Assembly: GCA_949524905.1 (NCBI GenBank) | Contig: CATINC010000007.1 | Location: forward strand, 62,001 to 126,000 | DNA: 64,000 nt | Source of the DNA: Opitutia bacterium UBA7350 | GTDB lineage: Bacteria; Verrucomicrobiota; Verrucomicrobiia; Opitutales; Coraliomargaritaceae | Direction: 5' to 3' | Shown: positions 21,697 through 62,069 of the stretch, piece after piece | How the letters are laid out: the number at the start of each line of letters is the position of its first letter | How positions within the stretch are numbered: the first letter of the stretch is position 1 | The notes under the pieces: generated by a model | The model's database searches: none | What the model was told of the DNA's origin: nothing | Seen by the model: the letters and a program-made list of their open reading frames with translations, nothing else | Made by a program: the position numbers and the translations under genes

Positions 21697-22263
21697 ATGA
21701 ACAAAATATCGAATGCACTCCTCCTTGCGGCCCTTTTCTGCGGCACGCTTGCGACATTTTTTGCAGGCGCGGCTTATGAAAACAGAAGTCAACAGACTCT
21801 GGTAATTGCGCAGCAATTGGATCACTCCGTAGCATTAGCTACTGAATCATATGTGATGCTTAGCCCCCCGCAACGCATTTCAAATGATCACTACGTAGAC
21901 CAATTGATCATCATGGCGGCCAACCAACGTTTAAAATGGTGGGTCAAGCCCTGCTCTCTCAAAACTCTAAATCTATCATTACTCAAAGCCTTTCAATACC
22001 GTGGCCTTGAGCCCGCGCTGGCACACCTTCAAGGTGAAATCAAAAAGCCAAATCTAGATACCCTTGCTAAAGTCAAACATGAGACTTCCGTTGAATCCGT
22101 TGAAATTGCCTACGCTTTTCTAACTCAAGATCCGGCTTACGATCCACTCATTCGCGATCTGATCTGCAATCAAGCCGGCTTGGTGCGTTCAAATGCTGCA
22201 TCAACACCTAAAGCGTCATACCTTCCTCCGCTGCCAGAGGACCTAAAAGTGCCCAGCGATTAA
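21697..22263 (+). CDS. Uncharacterised secreted or membrane-anchored protein
   Basis: The 188-residue protein starts with a hydrophobic segment (about residues 7-25, LLLAALFCGTLATFFAGAA), consistent with a signal peptide or single membrane anchor. The remainder is mostly helical and hydrophilic, ending PPLPEDLKVPSD. I recognise no domain. It follows pyk by 47 bp on the same strand and may be cotranscribed. Its stop overlaps the stop of the convergent metal-binding membrane protein by 4 nt. No function is assigned; an envelope location is the only reasonable inference. Confidence 0.65.
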   Translation: MNKISNALLLAALFCGTLATFFAGAAYENRSQQTLVIAQQLDHSVALATESYVMLSPPQRISNDHYVDQLIIMAANQRLKWWVKPCSLKTLNLSLLKAFQYRGLEPALAHLQGEIKKPNLDTLAKVKHETSVESVEIAYAFLTQDPAYDPLIRDLICNQAGLVRSNAASTPKASYLPPLPEDLKVPSD

Positions 22264-22955
22264 GCCTCGATTTTCTTGCTAGCACGCGATGTTCGCAAAC
22301 TTGGCAATAGCTTTGCCCAACAAACCAAAGCTCCAAACAGACTCAACACGAGGAAACAATGAATCCACCCTTGCAAAGAATGTACCGTGTTTTCTTCAGG
22401 GTAACTAAGCAAGCTCAGCCAAGCTAACATGCCTGTATTCAGCATGAAAATAAGCCCCATGGCAAAATATCCAAGCGGCGCTGGCACAGCTCTTAACCAA
22501 CCTCCTGATCCAGCTTTAGTGCGATAACCATAGACTGAAATTGTTTCAACAAACTCGGCTAAGTTAAACCCCGCTTCGCTTTTCCACCACAGATCCAAGT
22601 AGCCTCCCGACAGGGAAACTGCACAGCGTGTGCCTCCATCTAATCGCTCAAAGAGCGATTCAATTAACCAAGCACAGCCAGCACAGGTCATGCCCGAAAC
22701 CTCAAGTCGCAGGCGTCCCCCTCCCATAATTTTATTATTCAACTCTGCTTTTGCCTGCGCACCTTTTGCCCAAGCGGATCGTACTTTAGGTAATTCACCC
22801 ACCGGTTGCCCCGGAGCATCTCGGCGCGCATAAAATTCCTCCAAACCTTCGTGAGACAACAAAGTCGCCACCGCACGACACCCGCCACAGCAATAACTTG
22901 CCTCAGACGCAGACGGCAAAAAATCTACCCCACAATGCTTACATGGACATTTCAT
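22260..22955 (-). CDS. Short CcoI/FixI-like metal-binding membrane protein without ATPase domain
   Basis: The 231-residue protein matches the front of Cu+-exporting P-type ATPases of the CcoI/FixI kind: a Cys-rich N-terminal domain (CPCKHCG at 3-9; YCCGGCRAV near 21-29), then a heavy-metal-associated domain with GMTCAGCAWLIE near 88-99, then two or three membrane segments (about 165-185, 195-215). It ends there with a basic tail. The phosphorylation (DKTGT), actuator and nucleotide-binding domains are absent, and no frame downstream supplies them. It may be a stand-alone copper-binding partner or an intact relic; the clean stop favours a real short gene. Confidence 0.8.
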   Translation of the reverse strand: MKCPCKHCGVDFLPSASEASYCCGGCRAVATLLSHEGLEEFYARRDAPGQPVGELPKVRSAWAKGAQAKAELNNKIMGGGRLRLEVSGMTCAGCAWLIESLFERLDGGTRCAVSLSGGYLDLWWKSEAGFNLAEFVETISVYGYRTKAGSGGWLRAVPAPLGYFAMGLIFMLNTGMLAWLSLLSYPEENTVHSLQGWIHCFLVLSLFGALVCWAKLLPSLRTSRASKKIEA

Positions 22956-22994: not shown

Positions 22995-25900
22995 TCAGAC
23001 CAAATCAAATTGCTCAACCCCTTTGCGCACCTTTGAGAGAAAAGCAGCCGCACCCACACCATTGATCCATCGATGATCAAAGGTGAGCACCAACGAGACC
23101 GCTTCCATAAAGCCACCTTTCTCAGACTTTGGATCCGGCAAATGGTGAGGTGCTCCCACGAAGAGCGTTGCCACTGCAGGCGGAACGACCACTGGGATGG
23201 CAGAACGTACCGAGTAAGTTCCTAAACTGGAAATGATCAAAGAAACGCGACTCTTCGAAACCGCCTCGCCCTGACGCACTTTTTTCATCGCCAGATTCAC
23301 GGCTTCTGGAAATGCCTCCCAACTTAATTTATCTGCCCCTGAAACAACCGCCGTTTCCAAAATATCGCCCGGTAGGGCAACTGCGATCCCCAAATCAAAA
23401 TCTTCATCTACTTCTTGCAGTTTACCACCGCTTACATAACTGGCAAAACGGGAATTGGATTTCATCGACTGCACCGCTACCCATGCCGACATAGTCACGG
23501 GCGAGATGGTCCCCCCTCCGAGCTCCTTGCTGCGGAGTCGTGCTGCACTTACCGCATCCCAACGACAGGTCATATCGATAGTCGCAGGAACAATTCCTTG
23601 AAGTTGTAGAATTGCTTCTGGAGAAAGCCCGGTGCTGACAGGCGCAGCCTCTGCTGCATCTGAAGTCACCCTAGGACTGACTCCGTCTGAGGAATCCGTC
23701 ACCTCTAGCTCTAGTAATTCCTGCCCGACCTTTACCTCATCATCTAGGGCAACTTTCCATTCCAGCACACGTCCATCTACATCGCATTCGATCGGGAAAA
23801 CTGCCTTATCCGTTTCCACTTCGCAGAGAGCTTCATCTGCCGCGACCGCTTCACCTGAGGTCTTGTGCACTGCCACAATACGAGCAACACGTATGCCTTC
23901 GCCTAAAATGGGCACGGTAATGGTTTTAATGGGATTGCCCGAATTCATGGTTAAGTTCGCTTCCGTTTCTGTGCTTGGCGTGCCTGCATCTGCCACAGGA
24001 TCGTCATTATTGTAACTTACCGCCTCCAAAGAAGACTTCAAGGCGGATCCTAGTAACTCGTCAATGGCAGCAACGACCCGTTCACCATCCGGCAAAGCAT
24101 CATATTCATAAATTGGATTAAATCCAATATGCACATCCCCTTTTGAAACAATCGCGGGCGGACTCTTCAAGGCCTCCAAAACTCGACGCTCGCTGCAAAG
24201 TTCTGCCACCAACATCTGACCAATACTCGCGCTGATATTATCCTCCTGTAAGACGAGCAGTCGCCCTGTCTTACAAACGGATTCCATAACTGCAGCTCGA
24301 TCCCAAGGGGCAATGGAGCGAAGATCGATCAGCTCGACCGATAAGTCCGAGTCCATCCCTTCGAGACTTTCCTCTGCAAGCTCAACGCAGTTGCCCCATG
24401 TTACCATGGTCAAAACATCCCCCTCTCGGATAATGCGAGCCTTGCCAAGCTCTACTAGAGGCAAGGGCGCTGGGGCTGCTTGTGCTGCCCACATTAAATG
24501 CTTTGGTAAAAGAATGATAGTGGGGTCACTTCCTTTCAGAGCGGACCAAAAAAGCCCTGCGGCATCATTGGGTGTCGAAGGCACCGCCACTCGTAAGCCT
24601 GGAATACGTGCAAAATTTGCCTCTCCGGATTGGCTATGCCAAAGTGCTCCACCTGGAAGATAACCTCCGCAAGGCGCATAAATAACCAAAGGGCATTGCC
24701 ACTGCCCAAAACTTCGCCAACGCAAAGTTGCCATATTACTGACCAACTGATTCCAACCAGGATAAATGAAATCTACAAATTGAATTTCAAAACATGGACG
24801 CTTGCCATAAGAAGCCAATCCCACCGCAACACCCATAATCGTAGATTCTGCCAGTGGTGAATTCACCGCACGTACCGAATCCTTACTGGAAAGCCCTTTA
24901 GTTAAATTAAAGACGCCACCCTTTGGATCTGCAATGTCTTCACCAAAGAAAACCACTTCCGGCATATTTTCGAGCGCAGCGTGAAAAGTGCGGTTCACCG
25001 CATCTAAAATACGGCACTCCGAGTCCAACTCAATCGGCGCCTCTTCTACTTTACCGGCGGGTCCGTAAAGGTGCTTAGCCTGCTCTTCCGCACGCGGATC
25101 TTCCGCTGATTCTGCCGCTTTATAGGCTGCCCGGACCTCTGATTTTATTTTTTCTTCCAGTACCTCTGCCTCAGCTTGGGTCATCAAACGAGAGGCAATC
25201 AACTGTGCTTGGTAGCGCGCTACCGGATCACGGCTTTGCAAAGCTTCCATTTCATCAGAATCGCGATACATGCGTTGGTCATCTGCGCTAGAATGGTTTG
25301 AAAAACGCTCGACATCACACCAGACAAAAGCCGGTCCCTTGCCAGAGCGCGCATCGTCAACTGCTTCCTTCATCACCGCATCCACTGCATCTACGTCTAC
25401 TCCATCCACCCTTCGCCATTCCGACTCAGACAGGACACCTAAAGCCAAGGGATTCGTATGTTGCGTATCCGTGCTGATCGCGATGCGGTTATCTTCTACG
25501 ACAAAGACTATGGGCAACTGTCGTTCTTTGGCAAAACATACCGCTTCATAAAAATCTCCCTGTCGTGATGCCGCTTCACCGAGCGAGGCATATACCACCT
25601 GCTTATTTCCATCTATCTGAATACCCCAAGCTGCCCCACAAGCGGGCAAAAGATGCGCCCCCACCGGAGATGGGTGACTCCATATGTTTAAGTTACGGTC
25701 GCTAAAATGCCCTGTCAACTGACGCCCGCCACTGGAAGAATCGCGCTTGGCATAAAACGCCAAAGCGAGCGAGCTATCGCTGAGCCCGCGCTGAACACAA
25801 AATGCGCGATCACGATAATACGGAAATGTATAGTCGCCTGCCTCAAGATGAAGCGCGGCTGCGGCCAATGCTTCATGCCCCATCCCCGATATATGAAACC

Positions 25901-26030
25901 ATCCCTTCCCTTGCCGAATAAGGCTTTGTTCTCGAAGATCTCCCAAGCGACTGCGCCATAAGGCGCACATTAAATCCAGACGCGGGTCTGCTCCGTCCGT
26001 TAGAGAGGCACTTTTTAAATTTTTTGACAT
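22995..26030 (-). CDS. Single-chain 2-oxoacid dehydrogenase: E1alpha-E1beta-lipoyl-E2 fusion
   Basis: A 1011-residue protein fuses normally separate subunits. Residues about 15-330 are thiamine-diphosphate E1alpha ([10 protein letters not shown], then [14 protein letters not shown] and [11 protein letters not shown]). Residues about 335-665 are E1beta ([32 protein letters not shown]). A linker leads to a lipoyl domain at about 700-778 with lipoyl Lys742 in [10 protein letters not shown], and a short E2 acyltransferase domain at about 804-1011 ends in DHRWING. The usual DHRxxDG has Asn990 in place of Asp. No peripheral subunit-binding domain is seen between lipoyl and E2. Branched-chain-type E1 is most similar, but the substrate is unproven. 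No E3 gene adjoins. Confidence 0.88.
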
Positions 26031-26129: not shown

Positions 26130-27104
26130 CTAGAAAAATAGGGCTTCTGCTAAGGCTTGTTCTGGGGCGAGTGGCTTCAGCTGCGTCATGAACGCTTTCG
26201 ACTCCGATCCTAATTTGTAGTCAAAGCGAGCTCGGTCTCCCTCTTGATAAAATTCCCACTTGAAATAATAATCATTTTGGTAAGTCCAAACCATGTCTAA
26301 AATAAGCGGATTCTCTTGATCGGAAGCGGGTTCTCTTGGCTCAATCGGCAAGGTCTCCACAACCAAATCTAAGCTTAAACAAGACTTTATCCACTCCGCT
26401 AAGCGTTTTGCCTCGCCGCGCTTACCTGCAGCATAGTTGAGGGAAATTGCCTGCAGCCCGTCCTGGATTAATTCCATCGGGAAACCACTGAAAAACTGCC
26501 CTAAGGATTGCCGAATCGGTAGCAGGCGCGCCTGTGCAAGATCTCGCACGCCCTCAGGTCGCGGCCAATCCAAATCAGCAATATCGCTTTCCTCTCGGCT
26601 ACTATCGTACACCATGCGGCGCACTCCTTTTAAGAGGTTATCAAAATATTTACGGATGCGGATTTCTGGAACGCCCATGAACCAATGATAGGTCGGGAGA
26701 TCCGACTCTAGCCAAACCGATACTTGATTTGAAAGGTAGCCGCAATCGTCTGGCTCAAAACTCAACATAAGGGCTTCACAACAACACATTTCTCGTTGCG
26801 ATGGTCCAATGTAGCACTGACTGAAAAGCTTGGCACTCATTGAACCATCCCGTTGAGCCTCATTAGGGCACAGCACAATGATACGCCCAGGGTATCGCTG
26901 CACAAAAAGTAAGAGAGAATTAAAAGCTGCCAAAGCCTCCTCTGGCGTTATCTGGAAACCAAAATGCAGCACGATGTTCATCTGAGATGCCCGAAAATGT
27001 GAAGGCGATTCCTCGCCATCATTATCCCACATCTGACGCAGGCGATTGCCGACCTCACTGACCGGCAGTTCCTGCCCCGGAAAATGTGTGATTAATTCCG
27101 TCAT
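26130..27104 (-). CDS. opcA: OpcA-like glucose-6-phosphate dehydrogenase assembly protein
   Basis: OpcA-family proteins activate or assemble glucose-6-phosphate dehydrogenase at the entry of the oxidative pentose phosphate pathway. This protein is directly downstream of zwf, and contains the OpcA-like region with ESDLPTYHWFMGVPEI and DSSREESDIADL. The start at 27104 (MTELITHFPGQ) has AGGTGA at 27115-27120 in the right place and gives 324 aa; Met at 27137 would overlap zwf by 11 nt. I place it with OpcA by gene position plus remembered sequence features. Cytoplasmic, no membrane segments. Confidence 0.78.
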   Translation of the reverse strand: MTELITHFPGQELPVSEVGNRLRQMWDNDGEESPSHFRASQMNIVLHFGFQITPEEALAAFNSLLLFVQRYPGRIIVLCPNEAQRDGSMSAKLFSQCYIGPSQREMCCCEALMLSFEPDDCGYLSNQVSVWLESDLPTYHWFMGVPEIRIRKYFDNLLKGVRRMVYDSSREESDIADLDWPRPEGVRDLAQARLLPIRQSLGQFFSGFPMELIQDGLQAISLNYAAGKRGEAKRLAEWIKSCLSLDLVVETLPIEPREPASDQENPLILDMVWTYQNDYYFKWEFYQEGDRARFDYKLGSESKAFMTQLKPLAPEQALAEALFF

Positions 27105-27126
27105 CGCAAATGAGTCACCTGATCCA

Positions 27127-28686
27127 TTAGCCGGCATTTCGCCAAGTATTACTCGCTTGAGCGAGCATAGCATCACTCGCCGCAGGTCCCCATGAACCGG
27201 CAGCATAATGCTCCATGCCCTTCTCTCCATTAGCCTGCCAATGCTTGAGGATAGGAGTGATTAATTTCCAAGAAGCCTCGGTCTCGTCACCGCGAATAAA
27301 GAGCGTGCCGTCTCCCACCATCGCATCGAGTATCAAGCGCTCGTAAGCTTCCGGCGTGTTAGAACCATAAGTGGCTGCGTAGCGAAAATGCATCTTTACC
27401 GGTTGAGTTCTCGTTTCTAATCCTGGCACCTTTGAATTAAGCACTAAAGTTACCCCCTCATCCGGTTGGATACGAATGACCATGGTGTTAGGGGAGACAT
27501 CAAACTTTTCATCCTCTGAAAAAAGTATTCCAGGTGGCCGCTTAAACTGAACGGCAATTTCACTTGCCTGGCGTGCCATTCGCTTGCCGGAGCGAATATA
27601 AAATGGAACGCCTTTCCAGCGCCAATTATTTATGGATAAGCGCAAAGCAGCGTAGGTCTCCGTGTTGGAATCGGCTGGAATACCAGACTCCTCCATATAA
27701 CCGACAACAGGATCACCGTTGACAATTCCATCGACGTAGCGTGCGCGCACGACATCCCCACCCATACCTGAGGCTTCAAGGTTTAAAGGTTGAATGGCTT
27801 TGAGTACTTTTACTTTTTCGTCCCGAATAGATTCAGGATCGAGAGAAACGGGTGGCTCCATCGCAGTGAGTGCAAGTAGCTGCATGGTATGGTTTTGAAT
27901 CATGTCTCGCAGAGCCCCACTGGTATCATAATAACCACCGCGTGTCCCTACCCCAAGATTTTCGGCCACGGTAATCTGTACATTATTTACGTGCTCTCGA
28001 TTCCACATCGGCTCAAAAATAGAATTAGCAAATCGTTGCACCAACAAATCCTGCACCGTCTCTTTGCCCAAGTAATGGTCAATCCGAAATACCTGCGATT
28101 CTTCAAAGACTTCCTGAATGGTTGCATTCAAGGCACACGCTGATTTAAGGTCGTGCCCAAAAGGCTTTTCTATAATTACCTTAGAGGCTAGAGGCGTTTG
28201 CAAATGCGCCTGCGCTAAGCCTGAGCGTCCAAGGTTTTGAATGATCGGCTCAAAGACACTCGGAGGCGTCGAAATATAAAATAAGCGCTGCACCTCTCGT
28301 CCAAGTTTTGATTCAATCGCCGCAATTCTTTTTGCTAAGACTTCAAAGGAACTGAGGTCGTCGTATGCCCCAGGCAGATAACTCATCCCTTCCCGAACGC
28401 GCTCCCATATAGCAGGATCCAACGCGCGACGTGAATGGGACTCAATGGCGGCATCCATGTCCGAGCGAAAGTCCTCATCACTTATCTTGCGGCGTCCGTA
28501 ACCCATAAGATGAAATTCTCCCGGAAGCAGGTTGTCCACCCCAAGGTTAAAAATTGCAGGTATCAATTTACGCGCAGCCAAGTCACCAGATGCGCCAAAA
28601 ATGACCATTACAGTCGGGGGCGCACCTCGGTGCTTACTGAGGCCTTCCAGAAATGGATGGCGAGTAGCTTCACTGGGATCAGTCAT
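27127..28686 (-). CDS. zwf: Glucose-6-phosphate 1-dehydrogenase
   Basis: Zwf oxidises glucose 6-phosphate to 6-phosphogluconolactone with NADP+. The Rossmann motif GASGDLAARK begins at residue 31, and the substrate-binding signature RIDHYLGKE is at residues 201-209. The length of 519 aa is normal. The opcA gene follows immediately; together they form a typical zwf-opcA unit. No pgl (6-phosphogluconolactonase) or gnd gene adjoins. It begins 19 bp from the end of the yraN gene on the same strand, so those genes may share a transcript. Confidence 0.96.
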   Translation of the reverse strand: MTDPSEATRHPFLEGLSKHRGAPPTVMVIFGASGDLAARKLIPAIFNLGVDNLLPGEFHLMGYGRRKISDEDFRSDMDAAIESHSRRALDPAIWERVREGMSYLPGAYDDLSSFEVLAKRIAAIESKLGREVQRLFYISTPPSVFEPIIQNLGRSGLAQAHLQTPLASKVIIEKPFGHDLKSACALNATIQEVFEESQVFRIDHYLGKETVQDLLVQRFANSIFEPMWNREHVNNVQITVAENLGVGTRGGYYDTSGALRDMIQNHTMQLLALTAMEPPVSLDPESIRDEKVKVLKAIQPLNLEASGMGGDVVRARYVDGIVNGDPVVGYMEESGIPADSNTETYAALRLSINNWRWKGVPFYIRSGKRMARQASEIAVQFKRPPGILFSEDEKFDVSPNTMVIRIQPDEGVTLVLNSKVPGLETRTQPVKMHFRYAATYGSNTPEAYERLILDAMVGDGTLFIRGDETEASWKLITPILKHWQANGEKGMEHYAAGSWGPAASDAMLAQASNTWRNAG

Positions 28687-61970: not shown

Positions 61971-62069
61971 GAAAGCGTTAAAGTACCAGAAACTGCCGCC
62001 CCTAGGCAGCAACGATTAGCTTAGGACTTTCGTGTATTTACTTGTCTTCACGCAGAAATAAGCAAACTT

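Follow-up and report, generated by a model that had tools for sequence, protein, structure and literature searches.

A single-chain E1alpha-E1beta-lipoyl-E2 protein of Opitutales is a probable branched-chain 2-oxoacid dehydrogenase supplying fatty acid starters

The window analysed in this study is a 64,000-nucleotide stretch from Opitutia bacterium UBA7350 (positions 62,001 to 126,000 of contig CATINC010000007.1). On its minus strand, at 22995-26030, it carries a single open frame that runs from ATG to stop and encodes a protein of 1011 amino acids. The frame, which is conserved in the order, joins E1alpha, E1beta, lipoyl, and E2 domains that in most organisms are distributed over two or three proteins, and all five Pfam matches exceeded the curated cut-offs. 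The E1alpha domain (residues 31-313, 25092-25940; PF00676 (E1_dh), 2.5e-53) contains the ThDP motif GEA...N181 and the pocket residues F45, Y72, L105, and S121, which were assigned from conservation and an alignment with T. thermophilus E1. The E1beta half consists of a pyrimidine-binding domain (residues 343-512, 24495-25004; PF02779 (Transket_pyr), 3.5e-29) with the catalytic residues E395 and H465 and a C-terminal domain (residues 529-629, 24144-24446; PF02780 (Transketolase_C), 6.5e-17). In the lipoyl domain (residues 703-775, 23706-23924; PF00364 (Biotin_lipoyl), 2e-14), the lipoyl-lysine K742 (codon at 23805-23807) sits in ETDKA. A linker (residues 776-813, 23592-23705) leads to the E2 acyltransferase catalytic domain (residues 814-1009, 23004-23591; PF00198 (2-oxoacid_dh), 1.5e-20), whose N-terminal arm and C-terminal tail are shortened in the alignment. 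The catalytic H986 (codon at 23073-23075) lies in DHRWING, an HxxxNG motif with the same Asn as A. vinelandii E2p (Asn614). The chain thus contains E1_dh, Transket_pyr, and Transketolase_C with a ThDP/Mg motif and a catalytic Glu, as expected of a ThDP-dependent E1, and a PF00198 fold with the HxxxDG/NG motif and a lipoyl-lysine-bearing domain in the same chain, as expected of an E2.

Promoter and terminator scans at the fusion gene gave scores barely above chance. Next to it, a short ORF (22260-22955, minus strand) encodes part of a CcoI/FixI-type copper ATPase, namely its N-terminal metal-binding and HMA domains, and has no catalytic domain. Homologues of 231-408 amino acids have the same place beside the fusion in about 10 related loci. 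On the other side (26130-28686, minus strand), an OpcA-like gene and a glucose-6-phosphate dehydrogenase gene overlap at the 3' end of the latter, in different frames, and many loci of the family keep the two as a pair close to the fusion gene.

In an NCBIfam scan, all 20 matches of the fused protein were below their cut-offs and none was an equivalog; the best partial matches were the PDH E1 alpha and beta models. The nearest solved structures by sequence were the alpha and beta subunits of T. thermophilus 2-oxo acid dehydrogenase E1. An AlphaFold model of the single full-length chain showed folded domains (mean pLDDT 80) and disordered linkers at residues 663-698 and 780-807. When the lipoyl and E2 part was modelled alone, the pLDDT was 87.6, and the Foldseek matches were solved E2 cores, including 8p5t and 8p5r. 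A preliminary description of this DNA had placed E1alpha, E1beta, lipoyl, and E2 domains in one 1011-residue protein with the lysine of ETDK at Lys742, and the open frame, the domain matches, and the alignment described below bear this out. It had also proposed profile searches of each segment, which recovered all the Pfam domains and a family widespread in the order, and had not known the fourfold arrangement as a characterised enzyme. In agreement with the latter, no characterised E1alpha-E1beta-lipoyl-E2 or E1-lipoyl-KAS III protein was found in the open-access literature searched.

A fusion with the same domain order in one frame was found in about 60 of the 273 sampled genomes of the order, as read by eye from the match list, at roughly 47-83% identity; within the aligned set the range was 45-83%. 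A separate species-level collection, which shares some genomes with this sample, yielded 32 fusion loci, mostly Opitutia or Puniceicoccaceae by name; Coraliomargarita sp. has the fusion as well (L046). In an alignment of 35 members, E395 and H465 of E1beta, H986 and N990 of E2, and P70, Y72, R73, N181, and other residues of E1alpha were invariant, and the position of K742 was lysine wherever it was readable (34/34). The linker between the lipoyl and E2 domains varied from 28 to 74 residues across the aligned members. In the genomes G196 (L087, 1-1440) and G202, the frame counted stop-to-stop extends some 480 residues ahead of the fusion domains, and the added stretch could be a further N-terminal domain or a chance extension. 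Within its own family, roughly one in three sampled genomes had no fusion; all of these are 2 Mb or smaller, suggesting loss during genome streamlining.

An artefact of sequencing or assembly, or a pseudogene, that joins separate genes would be in line with an in-frame TAG in one sister assembly and with the existence of two-gene homologues. However, the frame is free of internal stops in dozens of independent genomes, and the catalytic residues of all domains are invariant, leaving this explanation virtually no probability; an artefact or split gene is refuted by the comparative data. Since the same-order fusion and its catalytic residues recur in so many independent genomes, the fusion is, on comparative sequence evidence, a genuine conserved gene. 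The TAG occurs in the 82% identical copy of the sister species G133 (L062, also L011), at about position 11060 of L062 and 14 codons into E1beta. Since this position is not at a domain boundary, the TAG appears to be either a nonsense mutation or a fault in the assembly of that genome. Of the two objections raised in the preliminary description, a hidden stop, frame change, or sequencing error is thus contradicted. The other, that the E1beta-lipoyl junction is really two genes, holds insofar as two-gene homologues exist (L145 and L146), but these are outgroups to the fused clade and do not undermine the fusion. Since they fall outside this clade, two adjacent genes are likely to be the ancestral state.

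The subunit-binding domain normally tethers E1 and E3 in 2-oxoacid dehydrogenase complexes. No peripheral subunit-binding domain (PSBD; PF02817) was detected in any of the 27 fusion members scanned, while the PDH E2 of the same genome was positive as a control; the site of the missing domain is the linker at residues 776-813. We propose that the PSBD was lost because E1 is covalently attached. In addition, the E2 C-terminus of the fused protein stops shortly past the last helix, whereas the PDH and OGDH E2 proteins of the genome run on to ...ENPALMLI and ...EDPSRLLFGI, respectively. The hydrophobic C-terminal tail for trimer-trimer contact is therefore not present in this alignment, and the tail was shortened in every fusion member inspected. 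In canonical E2 proteins, trimers contact each other through a hydrophobic C-terminal 3-10 helix, and the disturbed helix of actinobacterial E2p leaves trimers only (PMC10415282, PMC10581250). Since its tail is short, the E2 of the fused chain presumably stays trimeric and does not form a cubic core.

The closest precedent for such an assembly is the actinobacterial OdhA/KGD, an E2o-E1o fusion with an E2 trimer and an E1 dimer (PMC10415282). Like OdhA/KGD, the fused protein combines the catalytic domains of E1 and E2 in a single polypeptide, with an E2 fold matched by Foldseek to 8p5t and 8p5r, and by analogy an E2 trimer and an E1 dimer would be expected. As both would belong to the same chain, as in OdhA, we predict by analogy that they close into an OdhA-like hexamer (3 x 2). 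The two proteins differ in several respects: OdhA has an N-terminal E2, a homodimeric E1o, an actinobacterial insertion in the E2 tail, and no lipoyl domain, which is supplied in trans by E2p, whereas the fused protein has an alpha/beta E1, the order E1-lipoyl-E2, a lipoyl domain in the chain, and a shortened E2 tail. With the branched-chain 2-oxoacid dehydrogenase (BCKDH) complexes (T. thermophilus E1b, 1um9; human; P. putida, 1qs0), it shares the E1alpha/E1beta fold, the ThDP and pocket residues, the lipoyl domain, and the E2 motif. Those complexes consist of separate E1alpha, E1beta, and E2 chains, with a PSBD in the E2 and a cubic core built from it; the fused protein is one chain without a PSBD and with a short E2 tail. 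The 1:1 ratio of E1 to E2 anticipated in the preliminary description follows directly from the four-domain fusion, and its suggestion of an altered core assembly gains sequence support from the missing PSBD and the short tail.

An E1 tree inferred by maximum likelihood (48 rows; support given as ultrafast bootstrap/SH-aLRT) recovered the fused clade together (100/99) next to two-gene forms. In L145, an E1alphabeta gene is followed by a two-lipoyl E2, and in L146 it adjoins a lipoyl-E2 gene in another frame; both loci have a segment resembling a PSBD, which is not called by Pfam but aligns with the PSBD of the window genome's own PDH. The E1alphabeta proteins of about 680-700 amino acids (L145, L146, L154, L155) have their E1 halves joined in the same way as the fused protein, but their lipoyl and E2 domains are on another chain. 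In L068, E1alphabeta is followed by a lipoyl protein of 84-89 amino acids. A further group of E1-lipoyl-E2 fusions (L147-L151) belongs to the phylum represented by a Blastopirellula (Planctomycetota) genome. It was placed apart from the first fused clade, its sister group (99/97) being the KAS III fusions treated below, and neither this group nor the first clade has a PSBD. Since L147-L151 group in this way, the complete fusion had two or more origins, or a single one with subsequent splits, two origins being the probable course. The separate chains and giant E2 cores of these textbook complexes are regarded as necessary for active-site coupling. A single-chain version without the tethering domain, whose fusion probably evolved twice, is therefore an experiment of nature on what remains indispensable when E1 and E2 are covalently linked.

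The KAS III (FabH) fusions were found in 15 Verrucomicrobiota loci of other families (L085, L086, L092-L103, and L107), where E1alpha-E1beta-lipoyl is followed by ACP_syn_III and ACP_syn_III_C and no E2 is present. Their frames are about 1110-1170 amino acids, one being longer when counted stop-to-stop, and both members scanned with the NCBIfam beta-ketoacyl-ACP synthase 3 subfamily model scored above the cut-off of 249 bits (264 and 272 bits). The Cys, His, and Asn motifs are retained (AACSGY, PHQAN, and GNTSS). Genomes with a KAS III fusion also have an ordinary FabH, and in several of them E2 proteins are no more numerous than PDH and OGDH require. No special kinship of the fused KAS III with the stand-alone FabH of the window genome was seen. 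Read most simply, these sequences suggest that the KAS III active site would receive the acyl group from the lipoyl arm and start a fatty acid with it.

The best plasmid matches were Streptomyces loci in which, by annotation, a thiamine-pyrophosphate enzyme adjoins a giant non-ribosomal peptide synthetase, and their E1 proteins fell within the same larger clade as the fused clade (100/99). The PKS/NRPS regions with an E1alphabeta gene ahead lie at L156 14998-31843, L157 11959-26208, and L158 11905-27182. In common with the other plasmid records (five in all), the synthetase starts with a lipoyl domain, a PSBD-like segment, an E2, a phosphopantetheine carrier (ACP), and a ketosynthase (KS). Around two of the loci are genes for pabB, chorismate mutase, prephenate dehydrogenase, ornithine cyclodeaminase, and an AMP-binding protein, a set which we take to be that of streptogramin clusters. 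A review gives isobutyryl-CoA as the starter of pristinamycin II (PMC6963833), and isobutyryl-CoA has been suggested as the starter of virginiamycin M (PMC9636800). Given the streptogramin-type cluster and the isobutyryl starter, the Streptomyces relative of the E1/lipoyl/E2 set appears to occupy the position at which the ACP has to receive a starter derived from valine, suggesting direct loading from the keto acid rather than from free isobutyryl-CoA. The loading region of streptogramin A (pristinamycin II/virginiamycin M) resembles the fused protein in its homologous E1alphabeta (about 43% identity) accompanied by lipoyl-E2, but differs in that lipoyl-E2 is joined to the ACP and KS of the megasynthase, E1 is a separate gene, and the PSBD-like segment is retained.

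Besides the fused chain, the host genome (1.67 Mb, 99.97% complete) encodes ordinary PDH and OGDH complexes, which account for its two further E2 proteins and two further strong E1 loci; the fused chain is the third complex. Three E3-like proteins are present, one of which adjoins OGDH. In the E1alpha alignment, F45/Y72/L105/S121 fell on F66/Y95/M128/S144 of T. thermophilus E1, which presumably line the branched-chain substrate pocket, and HSSADD was identical. The SP(V/I) and HSSADD motifs differ in both B. stearothermophilus PDH and the host's own PDH (SPVGA vs GIVAG, GRQL vs GKGG, and HSSADD vs HSVADA in the latter), a comparison based on few residues. No acyl-CoA dehydrogenase (PF02771) was detected in the host genome or in five of the seven other genomes tested (G065, G079, G010, G020, and G597), while 10 of 14 control genomes were positive; the usual degradation of branched acyl groups therefore appears closed. 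A POR-family (ferredoxin-type) keto acid oxidoreductase was likewise absent from the host genome, ruling it out as an alternative route. The iso-C14:0 and anteiso-C15:0 fatty acids require isobutyryl and 2-methylbutyryl starters. Both are made by cultured Coraliomargarita (PMC10288369, PMC11165907), relatives of UBA7350 in which they account for 10-23% and 2-11% of the fatty acids, respectively (PMC10288369).

Since the pocket match, the lack of acyl-CoA dehydrogenase and POR, and the iso and anteiso acids of cultured Coraliomargarita point in the same direction, the fused protein probably acts as a branched-chain 2-oxoacid dehydrogenase in a single chain, providing the acyl starters of iso/anteiso fatty acid synthesis. 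The branched-chain substrate guessed in the preliminary description gains backing from the pocket residues and the genome context. The KAS III fusion of the related clade and the pairing of Streptomyces E1 with a lipoyl-E2-ACP-KS polyketide synthase also support the starter role; several streamlined genomes of the family without the fusion count against it, as does the neighbourhood, in which no conserved lipid, fatty-acid-synthesis, lipoate, or E3 gene was seen beside the fusion at the loci of either clade. From the domain content, catalytic residues, distribution, missing parts, and tree, we infer the following substrate, acceptor, and E3 sharing. The ThDP-bound E1alpha and E1beta halves would decarboxylate the 2-oxo acids derived from valine, isoleucine, and leucine, and the acyl group would pass across the flexible linkers to the K742 lipoyl arm of the same chain. 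The fused E2 (H986, N990, and S934) would then hand it to CoA, or possibly to ACP, as the starter. Because the chain has no subunit-binding domain, E3 would have to act as a free enzyme, common to the other complexes, in reoxidising the lipoyl group.

Identical chemistry and the same pocket type would also fit a catabolic branched-chain 2-oxoacid dehydrogenase feeding acyl-CoA into amino acid degradation for energy, but this is very unlikely, as the absence of PF02771 from the host and the five genomes named above removes the next step of each branched-chain pathway. A second pyruvate or short-chain (2-oxobutyrate) dehydrogenase giving acetyl- or propionyl-CoA deserves somewhat more weight, although it is still unlikely. 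E1 enzymes can be promiscuous, and the E1beta of the fused protein also has high similarity to PDH E1beta (173 bits against 1w85_B, compared with 207 bits against T. thermophilus); against this stand the separate PDH in the genome, the several pocket motifs unlike those of that PDH, and the FabH fusion in the related clade. The streptogramin-type setting of the nearest Streptomyces relatives raises the alternative of polyketide or peptide starter loading in specialised metabolism instead of housekeeping lipid synthesis. This is quite improbable for the Verrucomicrobiota gene, which stands alone without conserved neighbours and is retained in a genome of only 1.67 Mb.

Beyond the lipid-starter role favoured here, the three architectures raise the tentative possibility that an E1alpha-E1beta-lipoyl chassis with an exchangeable acceptor (E2, KAS III, or E2-ACP-KS) starts branched fatty acid or polyketide chains from 2-oxo acids without free acyl-CoA. 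In the FabH fusions, the cysteine of KAS III would take the acyl group from the lipoyl arm; in Streptomyces, and perhaps also in the window protein, ACP would take it from lipoyl-E2. What surprises most is that one chassis carries KAS III in place of E2. Such priming by keto acids, a route that could be useful for making branched lipids, is suggested both by the clade fused to FabH and by the way in which the streptogramin-type synthases begin with lipoyl-E2-ACP. In the Blastopirellula assembly G600, a 1111-amino-acid open frame with 36% E1 similarity accompanies an E2-type fusion (L064/L144), and one genome thus possibly has both fusion types.
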